In this document: in pieces, positions 9,307 through 30,357 of the stretch
Layout of the letters: every line of letters starts with the position of its first letter
Numbering within the stretch: position 1 is the first letter of the stretch
Source: Sphingomonas sp. LY54
Lineage (GTDB): Bacteria > Pseudomonadota > Alphaproteobacteria > Sphingomonadales > Sphingomonadaceae
Length of the DNA: 64,000 bases
Direction: 5' to 3'
Assembly: GCF_035594035.1 (NCBI RefSeq)
Contig: NZ_CP141588.1
Coordinates: 744,001 to 808,000 of the forward strand
Made by a program: the position numbers and the translations under genes
The notes under the pieces: model-generated
Seen by the model: the letters and a program-made list of their open reading frames with translations, nothing else
The model's database searches: none
What the model was told of the DNA's origin: nothing

Positions 9307-9338
9307 GCGTCATTAAACTGTCACCCCCGGCTGCTGAA
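9307..9338 (+). promoter_or_regulatory. Pho box and -10 upstream of the CYTH gene
   Basis: Two direct 7-bp half-sites, GCGTCAT (9307-9313) and CTGTCAC (9318-9324), are separated by four bases, giving the 11-bp period of PhoB sites. A GCTGAA element at 9333-9338 follows after 8 nt, placing transcription start shortly before the ATG at 9361. The same block recurs almost unchanged upstream of the second phoB gene. Confidence 0.75.
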
Positions 9339-9360
9339 TGGTGCGCTGGGGGAAGAGCGG

Positions 9361-10338
9361 ATGACGAAAGGTGCGCGCGAGCTCGAGCTCAAGCTGGAAA
9401 CCGATGCCGACGCGGCGGAAGCGCTCGGATCGCACCCGCTGCTCAAAGACGTCCCGTCCCGCGCCCGGCGTGCAGTCTCCATCTATTACGACACCGGGAA
9501 TGCTGCGCTGCGCGCGGCGGGGCTGACATTGCGGGTGCGGCAGGCGGACGGCCGCCACGTCCAGACGCTCAAGGGCAGCCGGAAGGGAGCGGCCGGACTC
9601 CACGACCGCACGGAATGGGAATGGCCCGTCGACGGGCCCGAGCCCGACGTCGGCCTTGCCGCCGACACGCCGCTCGCCGGCCTGCTCGCAGGTCCGGCCG
9701 ATGCGCTGCGCGCCGCCTTCCGCACGATCATGATCCGCCGCTCTTGGGAAGTGGATCACCACGGCGGGCGGATCGAGGTCATTCACGACCGCGCCCGCGT
9801 CATTGCCGACGGGCGGCGCCAGTCGTTCGCCGAGGTCGAGCTGGAACTGCTCGGCGGCCAGCAGGACGCGCTGTTCGCAATGGCCCGCGCGCTCCACGCC
9901 AGCGTGCCCCTGCGTCTCGGCGTGCTCACCAAGAGCGACCGCGGCCGCCTCATGCTCGGCGGGCGGGTCGACGCCGTCGTCCGCGGGCAACGGGCCGGCG
10001 ACCTGGCTTGCGCTCCGGGCGACCCGTCATGGCCCGCCGTCGCGCTCGCCTGCCTGCGCCACTTCCGCTGTAACGAGCCCTTGCTCGCCCAGCGCTCGCC
10101 CCCTGCCCTGCGCGAATGCCGGATCGCCTTGCGCCGCCTCGGCCTGGCGCTGCGCAGCGCGGCCGGACCGGACGCCGCGCGCTTCCAGCGCGCGATAGGC
10201 GACGCCGAACGGTTGCTCGCAAGCGGCCACTGGGAGCGCGTCGGCCATCTCCTCGACCAGCGCGCCTTCCAGGCGACGATGATCGACATCCTGCACTGGA
10301 TCGTCTGCGAGCAAAGTTCCGAGCCTGTCGCAGCCTAA
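9361..10338 (+). CDS. CYTH domain protein with shortened CHAD-like tail (triphosphatase-like)
   Basis: A 325-residue protein. Residues ~1-205 form a CYTH domain starting with ELELK (the ExExK motif, residues 7-11), which binds triphosphates and divalent metals through a tunnel of acidic and basic residues. Residues ~225-325 resemble the first helices of a CHAD domain (LRECRIALRRLGLALRS) but the second half of CHAD is missing. CYTH-CHAD proteins such as E. coli YgiF hydrolyse inorganic triphosphate, and CHAD binds polyphosphate. The ATG at 9361 has a GGGGAAGAG ribosome-binding site. An upstream Pho box predicts induction on phosphate starvation, which fits a role in polyphosphate/triphosphate turnover. 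No catalytic residue is visibly missing in CYTH. Confidence 0.85.
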   Translation: MTKGARELELKLETDADAAEALGSHPLLKDVPSRARRAVSIYYDTGNAALRAAGLTLRVRQADGRHVQTLKGSRKGAAGLHDRTEWEWPVDGPEPDVGLAADTPLAGLLAGPADALRAAFRTIMIRRSWEVDHHGGRIEVIHDRARVIADGRRQSFAEVELELLGGQQDALFAMARALHASVPLRLGVLTKSDRGRLMLGGRVDAVVRGQRAGDLACAPGDPSWPAVALACLRHFRCNEPLLAQRSPPALRECRIALRRLGLALRSAAGPDAARFQRAIGDAERLLASGHWERVGHLLDQRAFQATMIDILHWIVCEQSSEPVAA

Positions 10339-10346
10339 TCGGACCC

Positions 10347-10389
10347 GCGTCATCGAACGGTCACCATCCTGTCACGCGGGGCTGCTGAA
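10347..10389 (+). promoter_or_regulatory. Triple Pho half-site promoter of the second phoB gene
   Basis: Three half-sites in one orientation at an exact 11-bp period: GCGTCAT (10347-10353), CGGTCAC (10358-10364) and CTGTCAC (10369-10375). A GCTGAA element at 10384-10389 follows 8 nt later. This predicts PhoB-dependent, possibly autoregulatory, control of the downstream response regulator. Confidence 0.75.
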
Positions 10390-10427: not shown

Positions 10428-11120
10428 GTGTCCAAAACGCGATTGCTCCTGGTCGAGGACGACCCCGCCATCGTCGAGCTGCTCGCCTACCGGTTTGAGA
10501 GCGAGGACTTCCACGTCCAGCATACCGGCAATGGGGAGGAAGCGCTCAGCCTGGCGGCTGCGACGACGCCCGACGTAATCCTGCTCGACTGGATGCTCGA
10601 GGAGCTTTCCGGGATCGAGGTGTGCCGCCGGCTGCGGGCCGTGCAGGAGACCCGCAACGTGCCGATCATCATGCTCACCGCGCGCGGCGAGGAATCCGAT
10701 CGAGTGCGCGGCCTCGAGACCGGCGCCGACGATTATGTGACCAAGCCGTTCAGCCCGCGCGAGTTGGTCGCGCGCGTGCGCGCCGTGATGCGCCGGGCGC
10801 GCCCCGCCTTGGTCGGCGAGATGCTCCATTTCGCCGACGTCGAGATGGACGTGACCAGCCACAAGGTGAAAAGGCGCGGCACGACGGTAAGCCTCGGCCC
10901 GACCGAATTCCGGCTGCTGCGCTATTTCATGGAAAATCCGCGCCGCGTCTTCTCCCGCCAGCGGCTGCTGAGCGCGGTCTGGGGCCACGATCCCGACATC
11001 GATTCGCGCACCGTCGACGTCCATATCCGGCGTCTGCGCCGCGCCCTTAACGCGGACGGCCGGCCGGATCTGCTGCGCACCGTCCGCTCGGCCGGCTACG
11101 CACTCGACCAGTTCGACTAG
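10428..11120 (+). CDS. Second PhoB-like OmpR-family response regulator (orphan)
   Basis: A 230-residue receiver plus winged-helix regulator. Phospho-acceptor Asp54 lies in ILLDWM, the switch region in IIMLTAR, and Lys in VTKPFSPRELVARV. The C-terminal domain contains GPTEFRLLRYFMENP and RTVDVHIRRLRRAL. It is nearly collinear with the phoB product encoded at 51659-52357 and keeps the same recognition-helix region, so I treat it as a PhoB paralogue; no histidine kinase gene is adjacent. It starts with GTG. It lies behind a triple Pho half-site and is convergent with the last gene of the type II secretion operon, with only 2 nt between stop codons. It may sharpen or prolong the phosphate-starvation response in this region. 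Confidence 0.85.
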   Translation: MSKTRLLLVEDDPAIVELLAYRFESEDFHVQHTGNGEEALSLAAATTPDVILLDWMLEELSGIEVCRRLRAVQETRNVPIIMLTARGEESDRVRGLETGADDYVTKPFSPRELVARVRAVMRRARPALVGEMLHFADVEMDVTSHKVKRRGTTVSLGPTEFRLLRYFMENPRRVFSRQRLLSAVWGHDPDIDSRTVDVHIRRLRRALNADGRPDLLRTVRSAGYALDQFD

Positions 11121-11122
11121 GC

Positions 11123-11839
11123 TCAGAGCGCGCCCGCGGCCTCCAGCACATAGCCGGTGGCGGTCAGCCGGAAGCCCGCGGCGAGCAACGCGTCGCGCAT
11201 GCCGTCGTCGGCCGGTCGGATCGCCAGCGCGACCTCGTAGCGGCCGTCGTCGAACAGGCGCAGGTTGAGCGATTCCATCCCGCTCTGGCTGGCCAGCGGC
11301 AGCAGCAATGCGCCTTGGTCGCAGCGGGCATTGCCGCTGAGCGCGGAGGGCAAGGGCAGGCCGCCCGCCTCGCCCGCGACGTCGGCCTTCACCCGGCCCT
11401 CGGCGCTGCTGCACATGCCGTCGGTGAAGTGGGCGCTGACGTCCTCGAAGGCGAGCTTGCCGATCGGCAGGGGCGCCAGCGCGCCGCCGATCGCGAGCGG
11501 CCCGGTCATGTCGTCGATCAAGAACCGATTGCGCGACAGCGTGACCGACGCCTGGAACGGCTCCGTGTCGTCGTCGCGGACCAGATCGACGCGCGCGCGT
11601 CCGACGAACAAGGGCAAGGTCCGCAGGCTCGCGCGCAGGTCGCCCAATGCCACCGAGCCGAACTGCGCTTCGCTGAGCGCGCCTAGCCACAAACTCCCCT
11701 TCGCCTCGCGCGCGGCGAAACCGCGTTCGTCGAGCGCCAGCCAGTCGAGCGCCAACCGCAGCGGCAACAGCGCCACGATCGCGAACAGGAAAGCCGACAC
11801 AAGAAAGAGCGTGCGGCCCAGCGGCAATCGGATACGCAT
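11123..11839 (-). CDS. gspN: Type II secretion system protein N
   Basis: A 238-residue bitopic inner-membrane protein. One N-terminal membrane segment (~residues 9-28) is followed by a beta-rich periplasmic domain with alternating hydrophobic strands, as in GspN. Its identity rests on position, as the last gene after gspM, and on this topology rather than on strong motifs. GspN is an accessory component present only in some systems. The ATG at 11839 overlaps the gspM stop codon by one base (TAATG), which fixes the start. The gene ends 2 nt from the convergent second phoB. Confidence 0.75.
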   Translation of the reverse strand: MRIRLPLGRTLFLVSAFLFAIVALLPLRLALDWLALDERGFAAREAKGSLWLGALSEAQFGSVALGDLRASLRTLPLFVGRARVDLVRDDDTEPFQASVTLSRNRFLIDDMTGPLAIGGALAPLPIGKLAFEDVSAHFTDGMCSSAEGRVKADVAGEAGGLPLPSALSGNARCDQGALLLPLASQSGMESLNLRLFDDGRYEVALAIRPADDGMRDALLAAGFRLTATGYVLEAAGAL

Positions 11840-12321
11840 TACAGGGCCCTCGCTCGGAACGTGGCCTCGATGGCGAGGGTCTGGTCGCTGTTCGCGGTCG
11901 CCTTCAGCCGCTCCACCAGCAGCCCTTCCTGATTCTCCATCCGGTCCACCCACTGGAAGAAGGCCTGCGGTCGCGCCGCCTCGATCGCGATCGTCGCCCG
12001 GGCCGAGCCCGCACTGTCCACGCGCGCAACCTTGAACCCGGTCTCGTTCGCGGTCCGCATCAGCAGCGCATCGACCGGACCCGATGCGCGGGGTGCCACC
12101 TCACCCTGCAATTGGGTCACCAGCTTGGCCTGCGCGCGCGCCTGGGCCAGCGCCACCACCGCCTCGCCGTGCCGCTCCCGGGCCGACGAGAGCGCATCCG
12201 ACAAGGGCCGCACGATCAGCAGCCAGGAGAGAAGGATCGCGGCGAGCGCCGCCATCACGAGCAGCAGCCTCTGCTCGCGCAAGGTGCGGCTGCGCCACCA
12301 GGCTTTGAGGCTCGCATTCAT
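11839..12321 (-). CDS. gspM: Type II secretion system protein M
   Basis: A 160-residue inner-membrane protein. A short cytosolic stretch, WWRSRTLREQRLLLV, leads into one membrane span (~residues 20-40). A coiled region rich in Ala/Glu and a ferredoxin-like periplasmic domain (FKVARVDSAGSARATIAIEA) follow. GspM pairs with GspL in the assembly platform. The start at 12321 is fixed by a 4-nt ATGA overlap with the gspL stop. Length is normal for the family. Confidence 0.85.
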   Translation of the reverse strand: MNASLKAWWRSRTLREQRLLLVMAALAAILLSWLLIVRPLSDALSSARERHGEAVVALAQARAQAKLVTQLQGEVAPRASGPVDALLMRTANETGFKVARVDSAGSARATIAIEAARPQAFFQWVDRMENQEGLLVERLKATANSDQTLAIEATFRARAL

Positions 12322-13457
12322 CGCGCGCGCACCGTCATTTCCATCATCGGCCTCCCGCCGGCGCTCTGTGTCTGTCCGGCCTGGGTCGCGAAGCCGGCCG
12401 CCTCGATCCGCTGCTGCAGCAAGGCGACGTTCGCCGGCGTGTCGGCGAGCACTGCGACGCGCAGGCTGCCGTCCCGCTCGAAGGTGAATGCGCCGAGCTC
12501 GACTCCGGCGGTGGCGCGCACCGCGGCGAACAAGGCCGAGGTGATCGCAGTATAGCCCGCGCCGCTGCCGCGCAGGTCGGCGACACGTTCGGCGAGGCGC
12601 CGGGCCGGATCGCTGGCATTCGTACCGGGCGGAAGCACGCTTGCCGCGACCGCCTGCGTCTCGGCTTCGAGCGCATCGGCGGCATGGGTGTAGCGCAGGA
12701 TGGAGGCGAGCTGGATCGCCAGCGTCACCGCCAGCAGGGCGATGGCGAGCGCCGCGATCCGCCGTACCCAAGGCCATTCGATCTTCCAGCGCCGCCTTTT
12801 GGCGAACGCGCCCTGGCGCAGGTCGACCGGCATCGCGGCAAGCGCGGCGGCGAGCCCCTCCTCGAACGCAGCCCGGTCCAGATCCGTCACCGGCGCGTCG
12901 CCGACGATCACGCCGGCCAATTCAGGTTCGATGCTAAACGCTTCGGTGGCGCCGCGGTAGAGCGGCGCGTCGCCGCGCGCGAAGCGGGCAAAGCCCTGCT
13001 CGGGCGGCACCAGCAGCAGCGGCTTGGGCACGATCGCGTCGGGGTCTAGCCCGTGCGCCTGGAGCTGCTCGATCCAGCGCGTCATGCGCAGCACCGGCGT
13101 GAGCGCGACCGCGCGAAGGCCGCCGCCTTCCGCCTCGCCGCCGACCGCGACATGGAGATCGGCCAGCCCTTCCGCGCTGACGTCCGCCGCGGCCATCCGC
13201 CCGGCGACGAGCGCCTGCGCGGGGGCGAGGCCGGCGGGCAGCTCGAGCCAGTGCACGGTCACTTCCTCGCCGGGCACCACCGTGACGATGCGCAGCGGGT
13301 CGCCGCTCCCCGGGTCCGCGAGCAGCGGCAGCCCGTCAAGCCCGTCGCCGCGCCGCGCGACGCGGTCGCCTTCGACCAGCAGCCAGCCTTCGGCCTCGCC
13401 CAGCGGACCTACGAAGACCAGGAGACTATCCACGCCGCTCAATCCACTTCCCCCCAT
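12318..13457 (-). CDS. gspL: Type II secretion system protein L
   Basis: A 379-residue GspL. An actin-like cytosolic domain (~residues 10-240) is followed by a membrane segment near residue 245-265 (IAALAIALLAVTLAIQL). A ~110-residue periplasmic ferredoxin-like domain ends in GGRPMMEMTVRAR. It couples the GspE ATPase to the inner-membrane platform. The ATG at 13457 overlaps gspK by 19 nt and has no clear ribosome-binding site. A GTG eight codons later (13433), beyond a GGGGGAAG stretch, is an alternative start. It is co-directional and overlapping with gspK and gspM. Confidence 0.87.
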   Translation of the reverse strand: MGGSGLSGVDSLLVFVGPLGEAEGWLLVEGDRVARRGDGLDGLPLLADPGSGDPLRIVTVVPGEEVTVHWLELPAGLAPAQALVAGRMAAADVSAEGLADLHVAVGGEAEGGGLRAVALTPVLRMTRWIEQLQAHGLDPDAIVPKPLLLVPPEQGFARFARGDAPLYRGATEAFSIEPELAGVIVGDAPVTDLDRAAFEEGLAAALAAMPVDLRQGAFAKRRRWKIEWPWVRRIAALAIALLAVTLAIQLASILRYTHAADALEAETQAVAASVLPPGTNASDPARRLAERVADLRGSGAGYTAITSALFAAVRATAGVELGAFTFERDGSLRVAVLADTPANVALLQQRIEAAGFATQAGQTQSAGGRPMMEMTVRAR

Positions 13458-14431
13458 GTGCGGGCGACGATGCGGGCGCCCCCCTGGCGCGCATCGACGA
13501 GCGCCGATTCCTGCAGTTCCGCTTCCCGCAACGCAATGCGCAGATCGATGCGGAACCAGCTAGTCTTCACTTGCGGCTGGCCGAGGATGTCGCCGGGAAT
13601 CTGCACCTCGGCGAGCCCCGGCGTCCGGTAGAATTCGCCCAGGTCGCTCCATCCGGCCACCGGCCGCGAGGCGATCACCTGCCGCGCCGCATCGAGGCTG
13701 ATCTGGTCGGGCGCAAGCATCGCGATCAGCGGCGCCTGCTCGGGCGTCAGCGTATTGACGTTGATCGGCGAAAGCTCGGCCGCCGGAAGCGCGCACAGAA
13801 ACGGCCGCACCCGTTCGTAAATCTCCGCGGTCATGCCGCTCAGCGCGCGCAGTTCGCTGACGTCGGCGAACAAGGTGTTGCCGGTGCGGTAGGGCTGCTC
13901 GCGCTCGGCATAAGCCGAATCCTCGGCGCCCTGCTGGCTGGGAACGTCGTCGCCGTCGATCCAGTCGCCCGCCGCTTCGGCGACGCGCCGCGCCGACCCT
14001 TCCGGGATCTCGAGCGCCCGCATCAGGCCGACGAACTGGGCGATGCCGGACGGACGCGGCGCGAGCGCGGTCGGGATGTCGCCCTCGCCGAGGCTGTTGA
14101 TATTGAAGCAATTGCCGCCGTCGCGCACAGTGGCGCGGGCGATCCCGCCGCCGGGCAAGGGAATTTGCCGCTCGGCGCCGTTCCAGCCGCCCATGAGCGT
14201 CGTCTTCTCCGGGCTGGCGGCGAGGATGTCGTCGACCCGCAAAGTAAGCAGCGATTCGATCCCGGTCGCGAAAGCACGCGCCTGTTCGAGCGCCGCGGAA
14301 TTGGCGGCGAGCGCGGTCGACAGGCGTAATTTCTCGAAGGCGGCAGCCGCGAGCGCGCCCATCACCGCGACCAGCAACAGCACCGTCAGCAGGGCAGCGC
14401 CCTGCTCGCCGGGAGGCACCTGGCGCTTCAC
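13439..14431 (-). CDS. gspK: Type II secretion system minor pseudopilin K
   Basis: A 330-residue GspK, the large minor pseudopilin that caps the pseudopilus tip with GspI and GspJ. The N-terminus EQGAALLTVLLLVAVMGALAAAAF is the prepilin-like segment; as usual for GspK the +5 Glu of other pseudopilins is absent. The helical domain contains INVNTLTPEQAPLIAML and VIASRPVAGWSDLGEF (SAM-like fold). The start overlaps the gspJ stop by 4 nt. Confidence 0.9.
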   Translation of the reverse strand: MKRQVPPGEQGAALLTVLLLVAVMGALAAAAFEKLRLSTALAANSAALEQARAFATGIESLLTLRVDDILAASPEKTTLMGGWNGAERQIPLPGGGIARATVRDGGNCFNINSLGEGDIPTALAPRPSGIAQFVGLMRALEIPEGSARRVAEAAGDWIDGDDVPSQQGAEDSAYAEREQPYRTGNTLFADVSELRALSGMTAEIYERVRPFLCALPAAELSPINVNTLTPEQAPLIAMLAPDQISLDAARQVIASRPVAGWSDLGEFYRTPGLAEVQIPGDILGQPQVKTSWFRIDLRIALREAELQESALVDARQGGARIVARTWGEVD

Positions 14432-15012
14432 GAGGGCGCGCCCACGGCGAAAAGCTGGCGGACCGTGCCTTCGTTCTCGCTGTCGACGACCAGTTCGACC
14501 GCGCTGGGCAGATCGGTGATCCGGGTCGGGTCCCAGCGGTCGCGCCAGGCGCCTTCCGCGTCGCGATAGCGCAGGCCCATCCGCCGCACGCCGGTCAGCA
14601 AAGTCACGCTCTCCAGCGGCTGCGCGCCGTCGACATGGAAATAGCCGCGCCGCTCGAGCCGGTCGCCGAGCAGCCGATATTCGACCTTCTGCAGCGAGGG
14701 CCGCGGCGCGCCGTCGAAATTCTCCCAGCCACGCCGGACCAGCATCAGCGAATCAGCCGCCCCGTCGAAGGCGGGGCGGACCGCACCCGCCTCGTCGCGG
14801 CTGATCCGCGGCGTCGCCTGGGCCAGATCGGCGCCGATCAGCGCGTTCGCTCGCCGCAGCGCCGACAGCGCGTCGAGCCGGGTGTCGGCCGCGTCCTGCG
14901 CGCGCACGCTGAACGAGAGCAAGGCGACGCCGGCCGCCGACAGCAGCCCGAAGATGAACAGGGCGACGAGCAACTCGACCAATGTGAAACCGGCTTCCTG
15001 CGGGCGAGTCAT
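14428..15012 (-). CDS. gspJ: Type II secretion system minor pseudopilin J
   Basis: A 194-residue pseudopilin. The prepilin peptidase site lies in EAGFTLVELLVALFIF near the N-terminus (cleavage between Gly and Phe, Glu at +5), and a beta-rich C-terminal domain has the YRDAEGAWRDRWD segment typical of GspJ. An in-frame extension upstream is out of context; the ATG at 15012, overlapping the gspI stop as ATGA, is the start. It works at the pseudopilus tip. Confidence 0.9.
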   Translation of the reverse strand: MTRPQEAGFTLVELLVALFIFGLLSAAGVALLSFSVRAQDAADTRLDALSALRRANALIGADLAQATPRISRDEAGAVRPAFDGAADSLMLVRRGWENFDGAPRPSLQKVEYRLLGDRLERRGYFHVDGAQPLESVTLLTGVRRMGLRYRDAEGAWRDRWDPTRITDLPSAVELVVDSENEGTVRQLFAVGAPS

Positions 15013-15383
15013 TGTTCGGCCCGCCGGAACAGAGTGAGCGTCGCGCCGCCGGCCGCGCCTTCGACCGAGACGGTGATCATCTGGATGCGCGGTTCGGGCG
15101 ACAGCGCGGTCACCCGCTTCCACGCCCAGCGGCGGCCGCCGTTCACCGTCTCGCCGCGTTCCTCGCCCAGGGCCGGCGCGCGCGGGTCGGTCATCGTCTC
15201 GACGGCGATGTTGCGCGCGACGATCTGGGCGATCGCCTGCTCGTCGAGCCGCGTTGTGTTGGCGAGCGTCGCGCCTTCGAGCCGCAGCAAGGCGAGCGCG
15301 GCGAGGCTGAAGATCGCGAGCGCGACCAGCATCTCGACGAGCGTGAAGCCCTGTTCGCTGGGGTCAGCCGCCGACACGGACAT
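15009..15383 (-). CDS. gspI: Type II secretion system minor pseudopilin I
   Basis: A 124-residue pseudopilin with the leader SEQGFTLVEMLVALAIFSLAALALL. A short domain with the GspI-like pattern RNIAVE followed by VNGGRRWAWKRVTAL comes after it. The start lies 20 nt inside the end of gspH, so translation is probably coupled. It nucleates the GspI-J-K tip complex. Confidence 0.9.
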   Translation of the reverse strand: MSVSAADPSEQGFTLVEMLVALAIFSLAALALLRLEGATLANTTRLDEQAIAQIVARNIAVETMTDPRAPALGEERGETVNGGRRWAWKRVTALSPEPRIQMITVSVEGAAGGATLTLFRRAEQ

Positions 15384-15849
15384 TCCCGTCGGCGCCGATC
15401 TCGACCGCCACCTGTTCGCCAGCGCGCTGCAGCACGATCCGCGCCGGCACGGCGATGCCGGTCGGGTCGAGCGTGATCCGCACGATCCCCTCGCCGCCGA
15501 CGCCGGCCGTCACGCCTTCGCTCCACGCCTGGTCGACGAACGGCTTGCGGTCGAGCGGACGCCATGCGCCGGCCTCGCGCACGTCGAAGCCGTAGCCGGC
15601 GGCGCCGACCCGGACCGCCATCGCGCGGGCGTCGGTGATCGCTTTCTCCTGGGCCGCGGCGGTGCGGGCGGCGAAGCGCTCGGCCTCGGCCACCAGCGCG
15701 CCGCGCGGGTCGGGCATCGCCACGATCACCGCGGCCGACATCAGGCCGAGCAGCACCAGCACGACCAGCAGCTCGATGAGCGTGAAGCCCTGCTCGCCGC
15801 GATCGCACCGGGGCCGGATGTCAGCTCTTCCAGTTGCCGATGTCCGCAT
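15364..15849 (-). CDS. gspH: Type II secretion system minor pseudopilin H
   Basis: A pseudopilin of about 161 residues with the prepilin motif GEQGFTLIELLVVLVLLGLMSAA and the GspH-type domain (FAARTAAAQEKAITDAR, then DPTGIAVPARIVLQRA). The start is uncertain. The ATG at 15849 would overlap gspG by 29 nt and give a ~20-residue leader, long but acceptable; a non-ATG start nearer the motif cannot be excluded. Confidence 0.85.
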   Translation of the reverse strand: MRTSATGRADIRPRCDRGEQGFTLIELLVVLVLLGLMSAAVIVAMPDPRGALVAEAERFAARTAAAQEKAITDARAMAVRVGAAGYGFDVREAGAWRPLDRKPFVDQAWSEGVTAGVGGEGIVRITLDPTGIAVPARIVLQRAGEQVAVEIGADGNVRVGG

Positions 15850-16255
15850 CGTCGCCTTCGCCGCCCTCGCGCCCGTCCGCGCCATAGCTGTAGATGTCGA
15901 AGGCGCGCCCCTCGCCCCCGGGAGCGGCATAATGATAGGGATTGCCCCAGGGATCGTCGGGCAGTCGCTTGACGAAGCCTTCGCTGACCAACGCCTGCAG
16001 CCCCTGCCCGCCCGCCGGATAATCGAGCTTGTTCAGCCGGTACATTTCGGCGGCCTGCTCGAGCAGAGCGATATCGGCCTCGGCCTTCTTGACCCGCGCG
16101 GTATCCTGCGCCGGCATGACGTTGATCACGACCACGGTCGCGAGCAGCCCCATGATGACGATCACGACCATCAGTTCGACCAGGGTGAAGCCCTGTTCGG
16201 CGCGCCGGCGGCGCAGCCTCCGCCAGGCCTTCAGACGCGTCACGACTTTCTGCAT
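15821..16255 (-). CDS. gspG: Type II secretion system major pseudopilin G
   Basis: A 144-residue major pseudopilin. After a basic leader (~20 residues) comes AEQGFTLVELMVVIVIMGLLATVVV. Next is the conserved GspG core: ALLEQAAEMYRLNKLDYPAG, DPWGNPYHYAAPG and a calcium-site-like tail with YSYGADGREGGEGDDADIGNW. It polymerises into the pseudopilus that pushes folded substrates through the secretin. Maturation needs a prepilin peptidase (GspO/PilD), which is not encoded in this window. Confidence 0.93.
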   Translation of the reverse strand: MQKVVTRLKAWRRLRRRRAEQGFTLVELMVVIVIMGLLATVVVINVMPAQDTARVKKAEADIALLEQAAEMYRLNKLDYPAGGQGLQALVSEGFVKRLPDDPWGNPYHYAAPGGEGRAFDIYSYGADGREGGEGDDADIGNWKS

Positions 16256-16256: not shown

Positions 16257-17475
16257 CTAACCCCCTGCCAGCGTATCGAGCTGGAGAATCGGGAGCAGGA
16301 TCGACAGCACGATCAGCGCCACGACCACTCCCATGACAATGATGATCGCCGGCTCGAGCAGGGCCAGCGCCGTTGCGGTGAAGCCGTCGAATTCGCGTTC
16401 CAGATAATCGGCGGCGCGCTCGAGCATCGTGTCGAGCTTGCCGCTCGCCTCGCCGCTCGCCGCCAGATAGACGAGCAAGGGCGGGAACACGCCGGTTCGC
16501 TTCAGCGCCGCCGACAGGCTGCCGCCGGTGCGCACCGCCTCGGTGATGTCGGTCGAGGCCTTGCGCAGCACGCGGTTATGGACCGTTTCGGTGGTGAGCT
16601 TCAGCCCCTCCAGCAGCGGCAGCCGGCTCGCGACCATCGTCGACAGGGTCCGCGCCATGCGCGCCGCATTGAGGTCGCGGATCAGCCGGCCGATCAGCGG
16701 CAGTCGCAGCAGCCCGGCATCGAACCGCAGCCGCAGCGCCTCGTCGCGCAAGGCGCGCGCGCTGAGCAGGGCGATGCCGACAAGGGCGGCGAGCAGCAGC
16801 CACCACCAGGCGGCGAGAAATTCCGAAAGCGCAATCACGATCCGCGTCAGCAGCGGCAATTGCTGGCCGACGCCGTCAAATTGTTCGACCACTTTGGGCA
16901 CAACGAACACCATCAGCGCCATCACGACGAAGCTGGCGACGAACGCGAGCACGACCGGGTAGGCGAGCGCGCTCAGCACCTTGCCCCGGACCAGCGCCTG
17001 CCGCTCGAGCAGGTCCGACAGCCGCTCCAGGATGTGCGCCAGCGTGCCCGAGGCTTCGCCGGCCGAGATCATGGCGCGGTAGAGCGGCGGGAAGCTCGCC
17101 GGCTCGCGGGCCATCGCCTGCGACAGCCGCCGCCCCTCCAGCACCGCGGCGTGGACGGCGATCAGGATGCGGCGGACATGCTCCTGCTCCGCCTGCCGCC
17201 CGATCGTGCGCAACGCCTCCTCGAGCGGGCTGACCTGAACCAGGGTGGCGAGCTGGCGCGTGAACAGGGTCAATTGCTTGGCGGAAAGCTTGCGCCGCCG
17301 GCCTAGGCCCAGCCCGGCCGAAAGCAGCGGCCGCTCGCTCCTGGCGGTGCCGGGCGCCAGGCGGACGACGAACAGGCTGCGCGCCGACAGAAGGTCGCGC
17401 GCCTCGTCGATGCCCGGCGCGCTCACGCTGCCGCGGCGCTCGCGCCCGGCCGTGTCGACTGCCAGATAGTCGAAG

Positions 17476-17483
<8 letters not shown>
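16257..17483 (-). CDS. gspF: Type II secretion system inner-membrane protein F
   Basis: A 408-residue polytopic platform protein with two GspF repeats, each beginning with a soluble helical bundle (LSAKQLTLFTRQLATLVQ; later LNAARMARTLSTMVASRLPL), and three membrane spans. The C-terminal one is ALLEPAIIIVMGVVVALIVLSILLPI. The start is TCTAGC-adjacent ATG 17483, overlapping gspE by 8 nt. It acts as the rotor-like base under GspE. Confidence 0.93.
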
Positions 17484-18980
<1,497 letters not shown>

Positions 18981-18984
<4 letters not shown>

Positions 18985-21101: not shown

Positions 21102-21658
21102 TGCGGGGCACCATCCTTGGCAGCGGCCGGGGCCGTAACGGGCGCCGCAGGCGCGGACGCGGGCACGCCGACGACCACGGGCGCGGACGAAGATTGATCG
21201 AGGAACAGGCGCTCGGGCGTGCCGCCGCGCGAAACGACGACATGATCGAAGCCGACCGCGGTCAAAGTCGCGCCGGGAGCGATCTCGTCGCCGATCGCGA
21301 AGCTGCGCTGAGCGCCGTCCGGCGTGGCGATGATCGCCGAGCCGCCGCCCGACGCGCGATTCTCGCTGACGCCGTGGAGCTTGAGATCGAGCGCGGTGAC
21401 CGCGACCGGGCCGGCTTCGGCGAGGCGGAAGAACGGATCGAACCCGGTCGTCGCACCCGCGACGGCCGGTGCGGGCTTGGCAACGCCTTCCGCCTGCCAA
21501 GCGCCGACCGGCCCGACTGGCGCCAGCGCCGTCCATACCAGGCGGGCGCATTGCAGCGCGATCAGCGCCAGGAGCAGCAGCTCGAGCGCGGAATAGGCCG
21601 TCTGGTGGGGGACCCGACGCAACAGGCGGCGGGCGACCGGATTGAGAGCGATACGCAT
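21098..21658 (-). CDS. gspC: Type II secretion system protein C without PDZ domain
   Basis: A 186-residue inner-membrane protein. A basic N-terminus and one membrane span (~21-42, YSALELLLLALIALQCARLVW) are followed by a periplasmic homology region (residues ~75-155: LDLKLHGVSENRASGGGSAIIATPDG, ATLTAVGFDHVVVSRGG) that contacts the secretin. The usual C-terminal PDZ or coiled-coil domain is replaced by a Pro/Ala-rich tail. The start ATG 21658 has an AGGAGA ribosome-binding site. It is the first gene of a contiguous, overlapping gspCDEFGHIJKLMN operon. A second GspC-like protein that does have a PDZ domain is encoded 5 kb upstream. Confidence 0.88.
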   Translation of the reverse strand: MRIALNPVARRLLRRVPHQTAYSALELLLLALIALQCARLVWTALAPVGPVGAWQAEGVAKPAPAVAGATTGFDPFFRLAEAGPVAVTALDLKLHGVSENRASGGGSAIIATPDGAQRSFAIGDEIAPGATLTAVGFDHVVVSRGGTPERLFLDQSSSAPVVVGVPASAPAAPVTAPAAAKDGAPQ

Positions 21659-21680
21659 GAAGTCTCCTGGACGGCCTGCG

Positions 21681-21734
21681 ATTAGGCCGCGTGGATGACG
21701 GTTCGATGCTAATCTTGTGACAGGTCCGTGACAG
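21681..21734 (-). promoter_or_regulatory. Extended Pho box driving the type II secretion operon
   Basis: On the minus strand, half-sites CTGTCAC (21734-21728), CTGTCAC (21723-21717), a weak TTAGCAT (21712-21706) and CCGTCAT (21701-21695) follow at an exact 11-bp period. CCTAAT at 21686-21681 comes 8 nt after the last one and fits a -10 element. It lies 23 to 76 nt upstream of the gspC start codon and is the only evident promoter for the whole gsp operon. Confidence 0.8.
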
Positions 21735-21872: not shown

Positions 21873-24572
21873 CTAGAACCTCAAGCCGAGGCCGAGCGAG
21901 AAGCTGGTGCCGAGATCATATTCGTTGTTGGTGATCCGGATTTCGTCCTGCTGATATTCCGAGAATTTCGTGCCGAGCAGGTTGCGCGCCTCGAACTTCA
22001 GCTCGAGTTCCGCGCCGAACAGCTCGATCCCCTCGCGGGCGACGAAGTCGAGCCGCAGGCCCGGCTTCTCGACGATGTCGGCCTGACGGATCGAACCGAG
22101 CACCGGGCCGCGATTGGTGACGCGGTTGCTGGCATAGGTGACCAGTAAGGTCTGCTGCGACAGGCGGTCGGTATTCTCGAGGCCGAACTGGAGGTTGGCG
22201 ATATGCTTGGACTGGCCGGTCAGCGGATCGCCGTCGCCGAACACTTCCGACGCCGGGCGGAAGCCGCGATTGTCGTTGAGCAGCGTCTGGTCGCCGTCCT
22301 TCACCTTCAGCTTGGAGTCGCTGTAGGTATAGTTGGCGATCGCCACCGCCCGCCGCGCCGCGAAGAAGTCCCCGCCGAGGCCCTCGAGCGGGAAATATTT
22401 CTGAAGCTCGACCTCGACGCCGTAGAGATCGGCCTTGGGCGCGTTGGCGAAGGTCGTCTGAAGCGTGCCGCCGCCGGCGAAGGCCGCGACCGCCTCGATC
22501 GGATTGTCGATCCGCTTGAAGAAGCCGGCGACGCTGAAGCGCTGGTCGCGGCCGAAATACCATTCGTAGCGGGCTTCGGCGTTGAGCAATTCGCTGTCGA
22601 TCAGGAACGGATTGCCGACGAACTGGCGGTCCGAATCGATGTCGAGATAGATTTGCGGCGCCAGCTCGCGGAACTGCGGCCGGGCCAGCGTCTTCGACGC
22701 GTTGAAGCGCAGCTGCATGTCCTCGGCGAAGTTCCAGGTCACGGTCGCCGCGGGCAGGAAGTAGCTCTTATGCAGCGGCCGCGTCTGGACGAGACCGCCC
22801 TGGTTGAACAGGTCGATCTGGGTAACGCCCTGGACGCCGTCCTCGTAGCGCACGCCGCCGCTGAAGCGGACGCCGTCGACCGGCTCGGCGGTGAGCTGGA
22901 GGTAGGTGCCGAACACCTCGAGATCCGCTTCATAGGCGGCGGCCCCGGCGAGCGCCGAGGTCTCCACCATCAGGATGTCGTAGGTGTAGATATTGTAGTC
23001 GGACAGCAGGTAATCGGGGCGCTGCTGCGAGACCGCGAGGTTCAGCGTGTTGGCCGGGCGGAACGCGAAGTCGCGCCGCGACGAGGTGCGCTTGGTGTTG
23101 AGGTAGGCGAGGCCGAAGCCGAGGCTGGCGTCGAACGGCGTCGGCAGATCGTAGCTGAAATCGGCGCCGAGATTGTAGACGTCCTCGTTGAGGTCACTGA
23201 ACGAGATGCTCGCCGACTGGCCGGTCGCGGTCAGGTTGTTGACGTAGTCGTTGGCGTCGGTGCTGTAGGCGTAGCTGAACTCGCGCTCGTACGGGGACTC
23301 CCGCTGCGAGTTCGCATAGCCCGCGCGGATGTCCATCTTGACGAGGTCGAAGTCGAACTCGCCGACGAACTGGGTGTTGATCAGCTGGCGCTCGAACCAG
23401 GCGCTGCCCTGGCGGATGAGCTGCGGCGGCAGCGCCGGATCGGGGTCGCCGACCGACAGGCTGTAGCCCGAGGAAAGCCGCGCCTGCTTCAGCGTGTCGC
23501 GGATATAGAGGTTGGTCCAGCGCAGCTTGTGCTCGCCGATCTCGGCGCCGAGGCCGATCAGGCCGTTGACGACGATGCGGTTGTCCGAGCGCACCGAGCG
23601 GAAGTCGGTGGCGACCGTGTTGAGGCCGCCGGTCTGCTGGATCGCGTCGCGGGTGCGCCAGCTGTTGTTATAGCCGAAGCTGGCGATCAGGCCGACGCGG
23701 CTGTCGCCGATGTCCCACGATTTGCCGCCGCTGATATCGCCGGAGAAATTGGCCGGGATGTTCTTGTTGCGCTGAATGAGCGAGGTCGAGGCGTTGGCAA
23801 GGCCCGCCGCCATGTCCTGGATGTCGCGGCGGCTGAAGGTGGCGCCTTCGTTGATCAAGGTACCGCTGTTCATCGCCTGCTTGAGCAACGGCGGAATGTC
23901 GCGCGAACCGTCGTCGAAGCCGGTCCAGTCGGTGTCGCTGCCATAATAAGTGTAGCCGAGCTGGCCGGTGGTCTCGGTGTCGCCGCTGATGCTGCCGCCG
24001 ATCGAGAGGAACGAATCCTCGGGGATCGCCGAGGTGGTGAGATTGATGACGCCGCCGCCGAACTCGCCGGGATAATTGACCGAATAGCTCTTCTGCACGA
24101 CCGCGCTGGCGAGCACGCTGGTCGGGAAGATGTCGAGCGGGACGACGCGGCGCAGCGGCTCGGGCGACGGCAGAGCGAGGCCGTTGAGCAAAGCCAGCGA
24201 ATAGCGGTCGCCGAGGCCGCGGACATAGACGTAGCCGTTGCCGACGACGCTGAGGCCGGTGACGCGCTGCAGCGCGCCGGCAATGTCGCCGTCGCCGGTG
24301 CGGGCGATATCCTCGGTCGACAGGACCGAGATGACCTGGGGCGTGGCGCGGACCGGCTGGGGGATGTAGCGGCCGGTGACGACGATGTCCTCGCCGCCGT
24401 CCATGCCGGGCGCGGAGATGTCGACCGACTCGTCCACCGGCTCCTGCGCCTGGGCGAGCGCGTCGCCGGTATCGGGCAGGCCCTGCTCGGCGACGTCCTG
24501 CGCGAGCGCGGCCGGCGTCCACAAGGCGGTGGTCAGGAGCAGCAAACTCCCCAGAGTAAGCGGCTTCGGCAT
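21873..24572 (-). CDS. TonB-dependent outer-membrane receptor (partner of upstream lipoprotein)
   Basis: An 899-residue receptor. It has a signal peptide ending near ALAQ, then a plug domain beginning DIVVTGRYIPQPVRATPQVISVLS and containing VRGLGDRYSLALLNGLALPSPE. A large beta-barrel follows, ending in LGTSFSLGLGLRF with a terminal Phe as outer-membrane barrels require. The start at ATG 24572 is preceded by GGGGGA at 5 nt; an upstream TTG is less likely. It is co-transcribed with the lipoprotein gene upstream (74-nt gap containing a stem-loop) behind a Pho box. It takes up an unknown ligand; Pho control suggests a phosphorus-containing one. Confidence 0.9.
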   Translation of the reverse strand: MPKPLTLGSLLLLTTALWTPAALAQDVAEQGLPDTGDALAQAQEPVDESVDISAPGMDGGEDIVVTGRYIPQPVRATPQVISVLSTEDIARTGDGDIAGALQRVTGLSVVGNGYVYVRGLGDRYSLALLNGLALPSPEPLRRVVPLDIFPTSVLASAVVQKSYSVNYPGEFGGGVINLTTSAIPEDSFLSIGGSISGDTETTGQLGYTYYGSDTDWTGFDDGSRDIPPLLKQAMNSGTLINEGATFSRRDIQDMAAGLANASTSLIQRNKNIPANFSGDISGGKSWDIGDSRVGLIASFGYNNSWRTRDAIQQTGGLNTVATDFRSVRSDNRIVVNGLIGLGAEIGEHKLRWTNLYIRDTLKQARLSSGYSLSVGDPDPALPPQLIRQGSAWFERQLINTQFVGEFDFDLVKMDIRAGYANSQRESPYEREFSYAYSTDANDYVNNLTATGQSASISFSDLNEDVYNLGADFSYDLPTPFDASLGFGLAYLNTKRTSSRRDFAFRPANTLNLAVSQQRPDYLLSDYNIYTYDILMVETSALAGAAAYEADLEVFGTYLQLTAEPVDGVRFSGGVRYEDGVQGVTQIDLFNQGGLVQTRPLHKSYFLPAATVTWNFAEDMQLRFNASKTLARPQFRELAPQIYLDIDSDRQFVGNPFLIDSELLNAEARYEWYFGRDQRFSVAGFFKRIDNPIEAVAAFAGGGTLQTTFANAPKADLYGVEVELQKYFPLEGLGGDFFAARRAVAIANYTYSDSKLKVKDGDQTLLNDNRGFRPASEVFGDGDPLTGQSKHIANLQFGLENTDRLSQQTLLVTYASNRVTNRGPVLGSIRQADIVEKPGLRLDFVAREGIELFGAELELKFEARNLLGTKFSEYQQDEIRITNNEYDLGTSFSLGLGLRF

Positions 24573-24605
24573 TTTATCCCCCAAATCTCAAAGAACAAAG
24601 GAAGG

Positions 24606-26248: not shown

Positions 26249-26280
26249 GCTAGGCCGATTCGATGATAGTATTGTTACAG
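26249..26280 (-). promoter_or_regulatory. Pho box and -10 of the lipoprotein-receptor operon
   Basis: On the minus strand, CTGTAAC (26280-26274) and CTATCAT (26269-26263) lie 11 bp apart. CCTAGC at 26254-26249 follows 8 nt after the box. The gap and -10 (eight bases ending in CGG, then CCTAGC) are shared with the promoter of the PDZ-GspC gene. Confidence 0.7.
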
Positions 26281-27165: not shown

Positions 27166-27173
27166 GGGGCCCG

Positions 27174-27205
27174 GCTAGGCCGACAGCATGACAAAGATGT
27201 GACTC
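27174..27205 (-). promoter_or_regulatory. Pho box and -10 of the PDZ-GspC gene
   Basis: On the minus strand, GAGTCAC (27205-27199) and TTGTCAT (27194-27188) lie 11 bp apart, and CCTAGC (27179-27174) follows 8 nt later. Transcription would start within a few bases of the ATG at 27165. Confidence 0.7.
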
Positions 27206-27232: not shown

Positions 27233-27592
27233 TCAATAGCGGGCGAGCAACCGCCGGGCGAGCGCATCGGTGGAGACGACCTCGCCGCTCCCGGTCTCCA
27301 CCACGAAGTGGCGCGGCGACGCCAAAGCGAGCTGCCACGCGGCCCGGGCCTCCTCCCTGCGCCCCGTCTCCATATAGACGCGGCCCAGGTTGATCAGCCG
27401 GGCGGGATCGTCGGCCCGCACCGCGGCCGTGCGCATCAGCCCCTTCTCCGCGGTCGCCCAATCGTGTCGCGCGATCGCCGCGACGCCGAGCGTGCCGCGT
27501 TCGTAACCCTGCTCGACGAGCGAGGCCGACGGACTGGTCGCGCAGGCGGAAAGAGCCAATGTGGCGGCGGAAACGAGGATCGCAGGACGCAT
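27233..27592 (-). CDS. Small TPR-containing lipoprotein
   Basis: A 119-residue lipoprotein. Signal MRPAILVSAATLALSAC gives lipidation at Cys17 (lipobox LSAC) with Ala at +2. Residues ~30-90 contain about one and a half TPR-like helical hairpins (GTLGVAAIARHDWATAEKGLMR; ARLINLGRVYMETGRREEARAAWQLAL). The start ATG 27592 follows GAGGGG; six extra codons upstream are unlikely. It is preceded by a Pho box and ends 28 nt before the Pho box of the PDZ-GspC gene. It could assist assembly of the secretin, as TPR or pilotin-like lipoproteins do, but that is inference. Confidence 0.75.
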   Translation of the reverse strand: MRPAILVSAATLALSACATSPSASLVEQGYERGTLGVAAIARHDWATAEKGLMRTAAVRADDPARLINLGRVYMETGRREEARAAWQLALASPRHFVVETGSGEVVSTDALARRLLARY

Positions 27593-27620
27593 GGCGGACC
27601 CCTCAGGCAAAACGAACCAA

Positions 27621-27652
27621 TTCTAGCGCCCAAGGTTACAGCAATATGACGG
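27621..27652 (-). promoter_or_regulatory. Pho box and -10 of the TPR lipoprotein gene
   Basis: On the minus strand, CCGTCAT (27652-27646) and CTGTAAC (27641-27635) lie 11 bp apart. CTAGAA (27626-27621) follows after 8 nt. The GAGGGG ribosome-binding site and ATG lie ~30 nt further on. Confidence 0.72.
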
Positions 27653-27717: not shown

Positions 27718-27754
27718 TCCTTCGGGCGTCCTGTTCAGCGTGTGACGGCGACGC

Positions 27755-30295
27755 TTACAGGCGGACAGATGCGCCGATGTAGAAGGTTCGGCCGTAGCGC
27801 TCGTTCTGGGTCACCCAGTCGCGCACCCCGCCCTGATATTGCCGGGTCGGCTCGTCGGTCAGGTTCTGGCCTTCGGCGAAGAGGCGCAGATTGGGGGTGA
27901 CGTCGAAGCCGATCTTGGCGTCGAGCCGGCGCAGATCGTCATTGTAGGCGTCGGTCAGCGCCTCGTCGCCGGCCGAGATCAGCGCGCGGCCGGTATGGTG
28001 GTAGGCGACCGACGCCTCGATCGGGCCCTTCTGGTAGAAAAGCTGGGCGCCCCACAGCAGCTTCGACTGCTCGGGGAAGTCGGTCGATCCGCGGTCGGGG
28101 CTGCGCAGATTGCCGTCGAGCAAGGTCAGGTTGAGGTTGAGGCCCAGCCCCGACAGCAGGCCCGGCAGGAAGGTGAATTGCTGCTGATAGGCCGCTTCCA
28201 GGCCGACGATGTCGCCCTTGTCCGCGTTCAGCGTCTGGCTGAAGTTGATGATGTCGTACGTCTCGCCGCCGAAGCTGCCGCCGTTGATCGTATAGCTCTG
28301 GCCGAAGATCGGGTTTTTGATGAACTTGGCGAAGGCGCCGAGCGTCAGCATGCCGCCGCGCGTGAAATACCATTCGCCCGAGACGTCGAACGCGTCGGCG
28401 ACATAGGGCTTCAGCGCAGGGTTGCCGGTGCTGACGTTGAGTTCGCCGTCGCCGTCCACCGACACGCGGCCGCCGGGCGACAGGTCGGAATATTGCGGAC
28501 GGCCGACGCTGCGCGAATAAGCGACGCGGAAGACGGTGTCGTCGGACGGGGTCATCCGCACCACCAGGCTCGGCAGAAAGTCGGTGTAGCTGCGCTTGCC
28601 GCTGGTCGGAGTCACGACGTCGCCCTCCAGCAGATAGCCGGTGATGCCGAGCTTGCTGTGCTCGACGCGCAGGCCCGCGGTCACGGCGACTTCGCCGAAG
28701 TCGAGATTGGCCATGGCGTAGCCGGCATAGACATCCTCATCGAGGATGAAGTCGCCGAGCGTGTCGTTGGCGAGCGTGGCGCTCCGGTCGAGCACGAACT
28801 GCGGCCCGCCCAGCCGGCCGTCGGTATAGGCGCGGATCAGGTCGGCATCGATCGAGGGCGAGAGGAAATAGGTGCGGCCGTCGCCAAGGTCGACGGTCAC
28901 GTCGCCGCCGGAGAGCCCGGCCATGGTGAAGCGGTTGGCGGCGCTGCCGCGGCCATAGCTCGCGCTGGCGGAATCGAAGCTCTTGTCGGTGGTGCGGACG
29001 TTGCCGCCGACCTTGACGAAGCTGTCGCGGCCGAGGCCAAGCTTGCGGGTGAGGTCGACCCGGCCCTGCCAGCTCTTCTCCAGCCCGTATTCATCCTGCA
29101 CGCCATGGGTGCGGAAACCGAGACCGTCGGGTCCGAGATAGCCGTTCACCGGCGTGACCGAATAGAGCTTCTCGGTGAAATCGACCGCGAGCGGGCCCGG
29201 CGAATTGCGGAACTGCCAGCTCTGGTTGGGCTCGATGACCTCGTTGCGGGTCCGCGCGACGCCGTAATCCACCGTCCAGTCGTCGCCGATCTCGCTGGTG
29301 CCGCCGGCCATCAGCGACAGCACCGATTTCTCCTTATATTCCAGCCGCAGGTCGTTGCGCTGGTCGGTCGTCGCCGCGACGCCGGTCACGCCGGCAGCGT
29401 CCCAGGCGATGTTGGAGAAATCGAGCCGCATGCGCTGGCGATATTCGTCCTCGGCGAACTTCGAATAGACGCCGCGCAGATAGAGCTGGGTCGCGTCGCC
29501 GCGCCAGTCGAGCGAGCCCGCCGCGCCGATCCGCTCGCGGCTCAGGCGATAGTCGGTATATTTGAGATTGGCCGGCACGCCGCCGCGCGCCGCCCGGGCG
29601 TCGGGCACCCAGTCGTCGGGATAGATGCCGTGGCTGGTGAAGGTGCGGTCGGCATAGCTCGCGCCGAGCAGGATGCCGAATTGCTCGTCGGCGCCGAAGC
29701 GGCCGCCGACGGTAATGTCGCCGCGGATCGGCTGGTCGCCCTTGCGCATCTCCTGATAGCCGATCTGGCCGTTCGCCTGGAGCGTGAAGGGCTTGGCGAA
29801 ATCGAAGGCGGTCTGGGTGACGAGGTTGATCGCCGCGCCGATGCCCTGGCCGGGCAGGTCAGCGGTCTTGACCTTCGACACCTCGACCCGGTTGAGCAAC
29901 TGGCCCGACAGGATGTCGAGCGGCAGCGCGCGCGTATTGCCGTCCGGGTTGCCGATCTCGAAGCCGTTCAGCGTGTAGCCGTTGAGGCTCGACGGAATGC
30001 CGCGCACGGCGACGTAGCGCCCCTCGCCCTGGTCATATTGCACGCCGACGCCGGGCAGGCGCTCGATCACCTCGGCGACGTTCTTGTCGGGCAGCTGGCC
30101 GATTTCGTCGGCGGCGGCGACGTCCATCAGGCCCAGCGCCTTGCGCTTCAGGTCGATCGACCGCTCCTGCTGGGCGCGCTGGCCGCTGATGACGATGTCC
30201 TCGCCAGCATCCAATTCGACGGGCGTCTGGGCCTGGGCGGCTTGGGCGATGAACAAAGCGGTGAAACTGGCGGTGGTAAGCAACAAACGCGACAT
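27755..30295 (-). CDS. TonB-dependent outer-membrane receptor (Caulobacter/Xanthomonas type)
   Basis: An 846-residue receptor. It has a signal peptide ending AAQAQ, a plug with EDIVISGQRAQQERSIDLKR, LPDKNVAEVIERLPGVGVQYDQGEGRYVAVRGI and NGYTLNGFEIGNPDG, and a 22-strand-type barrel ending RTFYIGASVRL. The plug pattern (DEIGQLPDKNVAE...) is that of the TIGR01782-like receptors used by sphingomonads and Caulobacter for glycans and other large nutrients. It is monocistronic with its own terminator. A Pho box lies ~45 nt upstream of the start, so it is probably induced under phosphate limitation. The ligand is unknown. Confidence 0.92.
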   Translation of the reverse strand: MSRLLLTTASFTALFIAQAAQAQTPVELDAGEDIVISGQRAQQERSIDLKRKALGLMDVAAADEIGQLPDKNVAEVIERLPGVGVQYDQGEGRYVAVRGIPSSLNGYTLNGFEIGNPDGNTRALPLDILSGQLLNRVEVSKVKTADLPGQGIGAAINLVTQTAFDFAKPFTLQANGQIGYQEMRKGDQPIRGDITVGGRFGADEQFGILLGASYADRTFTSHGIYPDDWVPDARAARGGVPANLKYTDYRLSRERIGAAGSLDWRGDATQLYLRGVYSKFAEDEYRQRMRLDFSNIAWDAAGVTGVAATTDQRNDLRLEYKEKSVLSLMAGGTSEIGDDWTVDYGVARTRNEVIEPNQSWQFRNSPGPLAVDFTEKLYSVTPVNGYLGPDGLGFRTHGVQDEYGLEKSWQGRVDLTRKLGLGRDSFVKVGGNVRTTDKSFDSASASYGRGSAANRFTMAGLSGGDVTVDLGDGRTYFLSPSIDADLIRAYTDGRLGGPQFVLDRSATLANDTLGDFILDEDVYAGYAMANLDFGEVAVTAGLRVEHSKLGITGYLLEGDVVTPTSGKRSYTDFLPSLVVRMTPSDDTVFRVAYSRSVGRPQYSDLSPGGRVSVDGDGELNVSTGNPALKPYVADAFDVSGEWYFTRGGMLTLGAFAKFIKNPIFGQSYTINGGSFGGETYDIINFSQTLNADKGDIVGLEAAYQQQFTFLPGLLSGLGLNLNLTLLDGNLRSPDRGSTDFPEQSKLLWGAQLFYQKGPIEASVAYHHTGRALISAGDEALTDAYNDDLRRLDAKIGFDVTPNLRLFAEGQNLTDEPTRQYQGGVRDWVTQNERYGRTFYIGASVRL

Positions 30296-30325
30296 GATGG
30301 ACTTCCTTTCGTACTCGAGGGAGCC

Positions 30326-30357
30326 GATAGGACGCGCCCATGACGGATCGGTGACGG
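30326..30357 (-). promoter_or_regulatory. Pho box and -10 of the second TonB receptor gene
   Basis: On the minus strand, CCGTCAC (30357-30351) and CCGTCAT (30346-30340) lie 11 bp apart. CCTATC (30331-30326) follows 8 nt later. An AAAGGAAG ribosome-binding site precedes the ATG at 30295. Confidence 0.75.

Follow-up and report, generated by a model that had tools for sequence, protein, structure and literature searches.

The closest described counterpart of the locus analysed here is the ElpS region of Caulobacter crescentus, in which the gene for the lipoprotein ElpS (CC0170), a TonB receptor gene (CC0171) and the type II secretion genes gspC to gspN are linked. ElpS is induced by phosphate starvation, and a similar organisation was noted in Sphingomonas alaskensis, Xanthomonas campestris and Hyphomonas neptunium (PMC2996285). 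The function of ElpS was still open in that 2010 paper. Type II secretion genes, directly or indirectly, and TonB receptors belong to the Caulobacter PhoB regulon (PMC11208175). The ElpS–TonB receptor–type II core and its control by PhoB are already known from Caulobacter (PMC2996285, PMC11208175). Here we describe an island at positions 9307–30357 of a 64,000-nt stretch of Sphingomonas sp. LY54 (positions 744001–808000 of its single 3,282,853-base contig; hereafter the window), in which seven promoters share one arrangement of Pho-box half-sites. With a probability of roughly 0.87, the island forms a unit that PhoB activates directly when phosphate is scarce.

On the forward strand, the island contains a gene for a CYTH-domain protein followed by a second phoB gene (phoB2). 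The reverse strand carries gspN, M, L, K, J, I, H, G, F, E, D and C in this order and, beyond gspC, genes for a TonB receptor, an ElpS-like lipoprotein, a GspC-like protein with a PDZ region (PDZ-GspC), a small TPR-like lipoprotein and a second TonB receptor (TonB2). The genes phoR, pstS, pstC, pstA, pstB, phoU and phoB1 are found in the same window at 45–52 kb. Going by the published description, lipobox lipoprotein, TonB receptor and complete type II system are shared with the Caulobacter locus in the same order (PMC2996285). Unlike the locus described there, the island also holds PDZ-GspC and TPR-like lipoprotein genes with boxes of their own, TonB2, the CYTH gene and a second PhoB; its operon GspC has no PDZ match and its gspC box has four half-sites. 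As in described Pho regulons, direct repeats replace the -35 element and the PstSCAB–PhoR–PhoB set is present, whereas the -10 of CCTAGC type and a second PhoB that would itself be a target differ from those accounts (PMC11208175, PMC3616915, PMC10294691). The Caulobacter regulon, too, counts type II secretion genes and TonB receptors among its members (PMC11208175). New features are the grammar of the promoters, which is conserved in another order, a second PhoB under a box of its own, the split GspC with a PDZ protein tied to elpS, and GspN together with a G/D-rich sorting stretch in ElpS that suggests the export route. A Caulobacter-type ElpS/type II programme would be wired through a conserved, exact promoter grammar in a different alphaproteobacterial order. 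The matrix can be used to search for further members, and two additions are open to experiment, namely a paralogue of PhoB that belongs to the regulon it would control and a PDZ-GspC encoded apart from the operon and associated with the lipoprotein cargo. Neither a second PhoB nor a Pho regulon published for sphingomonads was found among the matches listed.

Pho-box promoters and their conservation

A preliminary description of this DNA had proposed seven promoters with 7-bp half-sites at an exact 11-bp period and, in five of them, a CCTANN-type or CTAGAA -10 hexamer 8 nt past the last half-site, where the other two have GCTGAA. Each of the seven was recovered at its place, and the 8-nt spacing to a -10-like hexamer holds in 7/7, with GCTGAA as hexamer at the CYTH gene and phoB2. 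Housekeeping -10 elements of Caulobacter are of the GCTANAWC type. Additional half-sites occur in phase at phoB2 (GCGTCAT, 11 bp further upstream) and at gspC (perfect CTGTCAC at both 21717–21723 and 21728–21734). The next-best position of the window in the first matrix is the pstS promoter, which was absent from the construction of that matrix and thus serves as an internal positive control.

When single sites were left out of the matrix, none of the other positions among the 128k of the window scored above the CYTH, phoB2, gspC, elpS or TonB2 site, while one did so for PDZ-GspC and two for the TPR gene. A spacer-masked version of the test sampled the genome at even intervals with 20 stretches of 20 kb each (400 kb, 800k positions on both strands), in which the left-out CYTH, phoB2, elpS, PDZ-GspC and TonB2 sites have no equal. 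The earlier proposition that chance would not fix such spacing is borne out; in this test five of the seven sites stand out, and those of gspC and the TPR gene do not. The weakest when left out are the TPR site and the last pair of the gspC box. The gspC site leans on its extra half-sites or on conservation, and the TPR site solely on the arrangement in this genome. With the full seven-site matrix, the seven score 20.3–24.0, which is circular for these members themselves, versus a best score of 15.5 in the genome sample and 17.0 in the reversed control.

Whole-genome profile scans, of a kind that the preliminary description had suggested, rank sites of the island first. A 20-site profile (7 sites of this genome and 13 of relatives) gave seven matches at E ≤ 10, the best six of which lie in the island and the seventh at 816422; the TPR site was not matched. 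A profile built exclusively from the relatives' sites gave four at the same threshold (elpS, gspC and TonB2 in the island, and again 816422). These scans scored the best 150 of 1030 and the best 150 of 651 first-look candidates, and neither recovered the pstS promoter, so that they mark the strongest sites and not the full regulon. A strict pattern found nothing in the genome, and a looser one found three places, two of them inside the island. The site at 816422–816445 of the contig (locus L080 on G000:C1), outside the window, reads TTGTCAT-4-CTGTCAC and scored 11.7 and 9.6 bits in the genome scans. The gene that follows at a distance of ~38 bp has a weak likeness to chemotaxis receptors (59.4 bits against a cut-off of 900).

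ElpS homologues are found in 55 of the 79 family genomes and in 15 of the 26 genus genomes. Conservation was assessed in the 260 bp upstream of 40 elpS loci from 39 family genomes, with dinucleotide shuffles providing the expectation. Scores above 11 were obtained for 34/40 elpS regions (1.16 expected) and above 15 for 21/40 (0.05 expected). For gspC, 8/12 regions exceed 11 (0.28 expected), or 7/11 without L066, which is an elpS-linked gene and not the operon gspC. Control genes have a box upstream in 0/40 (TonB receptor), 0/10 (gspE) and 1/11 (gspD) cases, and random windows in 1.7%. Where PDZ-GspC heads the operon in relatives, a box precedes it in 3/3 cases, and among the seven operon heads with phoB2 as first gene, four score above 13, a fifth (L141) scores 9.1 with three half-sites plain to the eye, and no box is present in the sister pair L034 and L126. 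The spacing finds independent support in relatives: with half-site pairs picked blind to the -10 in 39 elpS promoters (one of the 40 had no pair), 17 of 20 CTA triplets up to 45 nt past the best pair share the phase expected from the window (offset 9 modulo 11). In a further 69 named loci of ElpS homologues, mostly from Hyphomonadaceae and relatives with some from Idiomarina and SAR86 and many closely related to one another, 33 score above 11, versus 2.65 in shuffled and 5 in reversed sequences. The boxes of the CYTH gene, the TPR gene and TonB2 rest on the sites in this genome. In two genus mates (L136, L138), the type II cluster is rearranged and gspF is separated from the other genes; a box-like sequence (scores 19.4 and 18.5) immediately precedes this gspF.

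The second PhoB and the two GspC proteins

PhoB2 is assigned to PhoB at the equivalog level (TIGR02154, 336.9 bits, cut-off 296.2) and has the stretch RTVDVHIRRLR in common with PhoB1. The residues that we take to form the receiver site and the recognition helix of PhoB1 are kept in PhoB2 in the alignment of the two. A PhoB gene is located directly upstream of PDZ-GspC and elpS in 7 of 13 elpS loci of the genus, which come from 13 of the 14 such genomes (L034 included). In a tree of 40 PhoB rows, 35 of them different, PhoB2 of the window groups with elpS-linked PhoBs and not with PhoB1, and it is on longer branches than PhoB1. Support for this grouping is moderate (84/80 and 91/90 at the forks). 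PhoB2 is likely a PhoB-driven amplifier.

The island contains a full set of GspC, D, E, F, G, H, I, J, K, L, M and N. A candidate prepilin peptidase gene, recognised by reading and without an NCBIfam match at 1e-10, is found outside the island, ~78 kb away. The operon GspC ends where gspD starts. PDZ-GspC scores 54.4 bits against TIGR01713, below the cut-off of 101.6, and passes the Pfam T2SSC threshold (32.2 versus 27), while its PDZ part remains under the cut-off (PDZ_6, 24.2 bits versus 27); it is therefore treated as GspC-like and not filed as GspC. A separate PDZ-GspC precedes elpS in 10 of the 13 genus loci, even in stretches without type II genes. Among five gspD-linked GspCs of relatives that were scanned, those of L124, L130, L142 and L046 have a PDZ match and that of L051 has none. 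As in the window, the PDZ-less operon GspC of L051 adjoins an elpS-linked PDZ protein, a recurrence that favours a division of labour, whereas the presence of PDZ on both proteins in L124, L130 and L142 argues against PDZ-GspC being a mere replacement. In Vibrio, the PDZ domain of EpsC is required for part of the cargo only, which makes an ElpS-linked supplier of PDZ a reasonable reading by analogy (PMC12369372). PDZ-GspC resembles the EpsC/GspC proteins discussed there in having HR and PDZ regions and differs in being encoded by a separate gene beside elpS, next to an operon GspC without PDZ match (PMC12369372). The PDZ-GspC message is probably leaderless, as the predicted -10 ends 8 nt ahead of the presumed ATG (27165–27179), and the same is seen in three PDZ-first relatives.

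Across the genus, the presence of elpS is associated with that of a close gspD (matches of at least 60% identity): 14 genomes contain the two genes, 1 contains elpS only, 4 contain gspD only and 7 contain neither (Fisher p 0.003, with drafts included and kinship ignored in the statistic). A second set, gspC2-gspD2-gspE2, lies beside a prepilin-peptidase-like gene outside the window at ~683.5–688.9 kb (G000:C1; L164, L165). Its DNA is 96.7% identical over 3.58 kb to window positions 17478–21059, as if from recent gene conversion, and the proteins are 99.6% (GspD), 90% (GspE) and 65% (GspC) identical. GspC of this set retains a PDZ-like part; the best Pho-box score upstream is 11.3, which is not convincing.

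A proposed PhoB programme and its alternatives

The proposal of a single PhoB starvation programme is well supported as an inference by the non-chance sites, the pstS promoter in the same register and the conserved boxes; PhoR, PstSCAB, PhoU and two PhoB proteins are encoded in the same window. Of the two receptors, TonB2 has a box and the first TonB receptor has none of its own. At low phosphate, PhoR would phosphorylate PhoB1 and probably PhoB2. Phospho-PhoB would bind the repeated half-sites, which stand in for a -35 element, set RNA polymerase on the -10 located 8 nt downstream and switch on the seven transcription units, so that transcription from all seven promoters is expected to depend on phosphate. 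The product would be a surface phosphate-scavenging apparatus comprising the type II system from GspC to GspN with ElpS as lipoprotein cargo, PDZ-GspC, the TonB receptors and the CYTH protein, and PhoB2 under its own box would act as amplifier. By analogy with Caulobacter, ElpS would be induced by phosphate starvation and its release aided by the type II system. By analogy with other species, GspN may take ElpS outward, and part of the cargo may be picked by the PDZ region of PDZ-GspC. A possible but doubtful extension is that starvation rebuilds the type II system, with PDZ-GspC supplying the missing PDZ and retargeting the machine to ElpS via GspN, and with PhoB2 as dedicated amplifier.

A chance resemblance, chosen by a pattern-seeking reader, can be practically dismissed. 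The window indeed has no excess of single CTGTCAC heptamers (5 versus 4.0 expected), but the signal is the arrangement of half-sites and not the heptamer count. The leave-one-out, genome-sample, whole-genome and conservation tests all speak against chance, and for elpS, gspC and PDZ-GspC it is refuted by conservation with matched negative controls. It is also improbable that the boxes are real but recognised by a different regulator of the OmpR family, or solely by PhoB2 under some non-phosphate signal, in which case the programme would not be one of phosphate. As far as we are aware, sites of OmpR-family regulators resemble one another, and PhoB2 lies within the island on longer branches than PhoB1 and without an adjoining kinase gene. 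Yet the same grammar is found at pstS beside phoR, PhoB2 passes the PhoB equivalog cut-off and has the stretch named above in common with PhoB1, and elpS boxes persist in the family although 38 of the 40 stretches have no nearby PhoB-like match above 43% identity (exceptions L034 and L047). Unlikely in our view is that only part of the seven are working PhoB promoters, the TPR site, or the CYTH and TPR sites, being look-alikes. The low rank of gspC and TPR when left out and the GCTGAA instead of CCTANN at the CYTH gene and phoB2 would fit this. The CYTH, phoB2 and TonB2 sites are nevertheless among the best, gspC has four half-sites and a box that recurs in relatives, and phoB2 boxes recur in genus mates.

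Several observations weigh against a directly PhoB-activated unit, or against parts of it. The 400-kb sample matches or beats the last gspC pair at 19 positions and the TPR site at 7, and no box at score 11 is found in 6/40 elpS, 4/12 gspC and 3/7 phoB2-first regions. The type II genes of Caulobacter were expressed in rich and poor medium, with a 1.7-fold difference by reverse transcription PCR and similar protein levels (PMC2996285), although a later transcriptome does place them in the PhoB regulon (PMC11208175). The PhoB2 branch includes proteins of two genomes (G085, G089) in which elpS was not found. Three others (G087, G094, G095) have elpS and one PhoB match each at E ≤ 1e-90, a cut that may hide copies, which suggests that PhoB2 is optional and not necessary. 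As for the GspN route, Caulobacter ElpS is surface-exposed without the type II system, which is needed for its release (PMC2996285).

ElpS and the remaining features of the window

In GspD-dependent lipoproteins of two other species, Burkholderia pseudomallei and Shewanella oneidensis, a glycine/aspartate motif follows the lipidated cysteine, and GspN was reasoned to be possibly needed (PMC12802150). The presence of gspN here and the GADD of ElpS, similar to the glycine/aspartate hybrid motif of that account, suggest such an export route, as read from the sequence. The lipoprotein of the window is 80% identical to its homologue in G053 and 78% to that of Allosphingosinicella flava. A lipobox-like stretch is present in 108 of 120 listed homologues and is followed by GADD in 39 and by GGGA in 17. 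The 120 listed homologues carry PF28492, while ElpS of the window had no Pfam match in the domain scan. Homologues are found in Hyphomonadaceae and others. Against solved structures, the best match of the sequence has an E-value of 0.39 and the model has none at E ≤ 0.001. The best-ranked structures for the model are mostly beta-helix proteins, none of the 50 listed exceeds a query TM-score (template modelling score) of 0.32, and a function derived from this likeness was dropped because the matches are too weak. In Hyphomonadaceae and others (L166–L244), an ElpS homologue of ~830 residues apparently contains two tandem domain copies. A GC hairpin lies between elpS and the TonB receptor gene (24585–24646; z of -1.5 in the window). 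In relatives, the 70 nt 3' of elpS fold at z < -2 in 47/51 loci (median -3.5), and the hairpin may serve to raise the output of ElpS over that of the receptor.

Table 1. Features of the window, in positions counted from its first base. In box rows, the numbers between motifs are spacer lengths in nt; aa, amino acid residues; ORF, open reading frame; pLDDT, predicted local distance difference test.
Feature	Position	Strand	Evidence or sequence
CYTH Pho box, 2 half-sites	9307..9338	+	GCGTCAT-4-CTGTCAC-8-GCTGAA
CYTH-domain protein, 325 aa	9361..10338	+	PF01928, 63.2 bits
phoB2 Pho box, 3 half-sites	10347..10389 (last pair 10358-10389)	+	CGGTCAC-4-CTGTCAC-8-GCTGAA
phoB2, second PhoB, 230 aa, 71% identical to PhoB1	10428..11120	+	TIGR02154, blastp, tree
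gspN (ORF bounds; real start internal)	11123..11953	-	PF01203, 80.5 bits
gspM (ORF bounds; real start internal)	11839..12777	-	PF04612, 87.3 bits
gspL	12318..13457	-	TIGR01709
gspK	13439..14431	-	NF037980
gspJ (ORF bounds)	14428..15123	-	TIGR01711
gspI	15009..15383	-	TIGR01707
gspH	15364..15930	-	TIGR01708 best match, 72.8 bits, below cut-off of 80
gspG	15821..16255	-	TIGR01710
gspF	16257..17483	-	TIGR02120
gspE	17476..18984	-	TIGR02533, 626.9 bits, just under cut-off of 630.25
gspD secretin, 706 aa	18981..21101	-	TIGR02517, 551.6 bits, cut-off 351.35
gspC, HR domain only, no PDZ match	21098..21661	-	PF11356, 81.9 bits, no other match
gspC Pho box, 4 half-sites at 11-bp period	21681..21734	-	TTAGCAT-4-CCGTCAT-8-CCTAAT (21681-21712)
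First TonB-dependent receptor, no own Pho box	21873..24584	-	PF00593, PF07715
ElpS-like lipoprotein, 511 aa	24647..26182	-	lipobox LAAC, then GADD; model mean pLDDT 87.2
elpS (lipoprotein) Pho box	26249..26280	-	CTGTAAC-4-CTATCAT-8-CCTAGC
PDZ-GspC, HR and PDZ-like region, 266 aa	26365..27165	-	PF11356, 32.2 bits (cut-off 27)
PDZ-GspC Pho box	27174..27205	-	GAGTCAC-4-TTGTCAT-8-CCTAGC
Small TPR-like lipoprotein	27233..27610	-	TPR_2, 25.8 bits, under cut-off of 27; lipobox by reading
TPR gene Pho box	27621..27652	-	CCGTCAT-4-CTGTAAC-8-CTAGAA
Second TonB-dependent receptor (TonB2)	27755..30295	-	TIGR01782, 574.1 bits, cut-off 310
TonB2 Pho box	30326..30357	-	CCGTCAC-4-CCGTCAT-8-CCTATC
phoR sensor kinase	45045..46313	+	TIGR02966 best match, 291.7 bits, under cut-off of 334.2
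pstS promoter	46239..46292	+	3 good and 1 weak half-site; CCTAGG 8 nt past fourth position
phoB1, end of phoR-pstSCAB-phoU-phoB cluster	51659..52357	+	TIGR02154, 349.2 bits

PhoR and PstS are the best NCBIfam matches of their genes, yet with scores under the cut-offs. A CHAD domain was considered for the CYTH protein and dropped, as the domain scans gave no match to it. In the genus mate G083 (L133), relatives of the CYTH and TPR genes (35% and 47% identity, respectively) adjoin phoR and pstS and not elpS.

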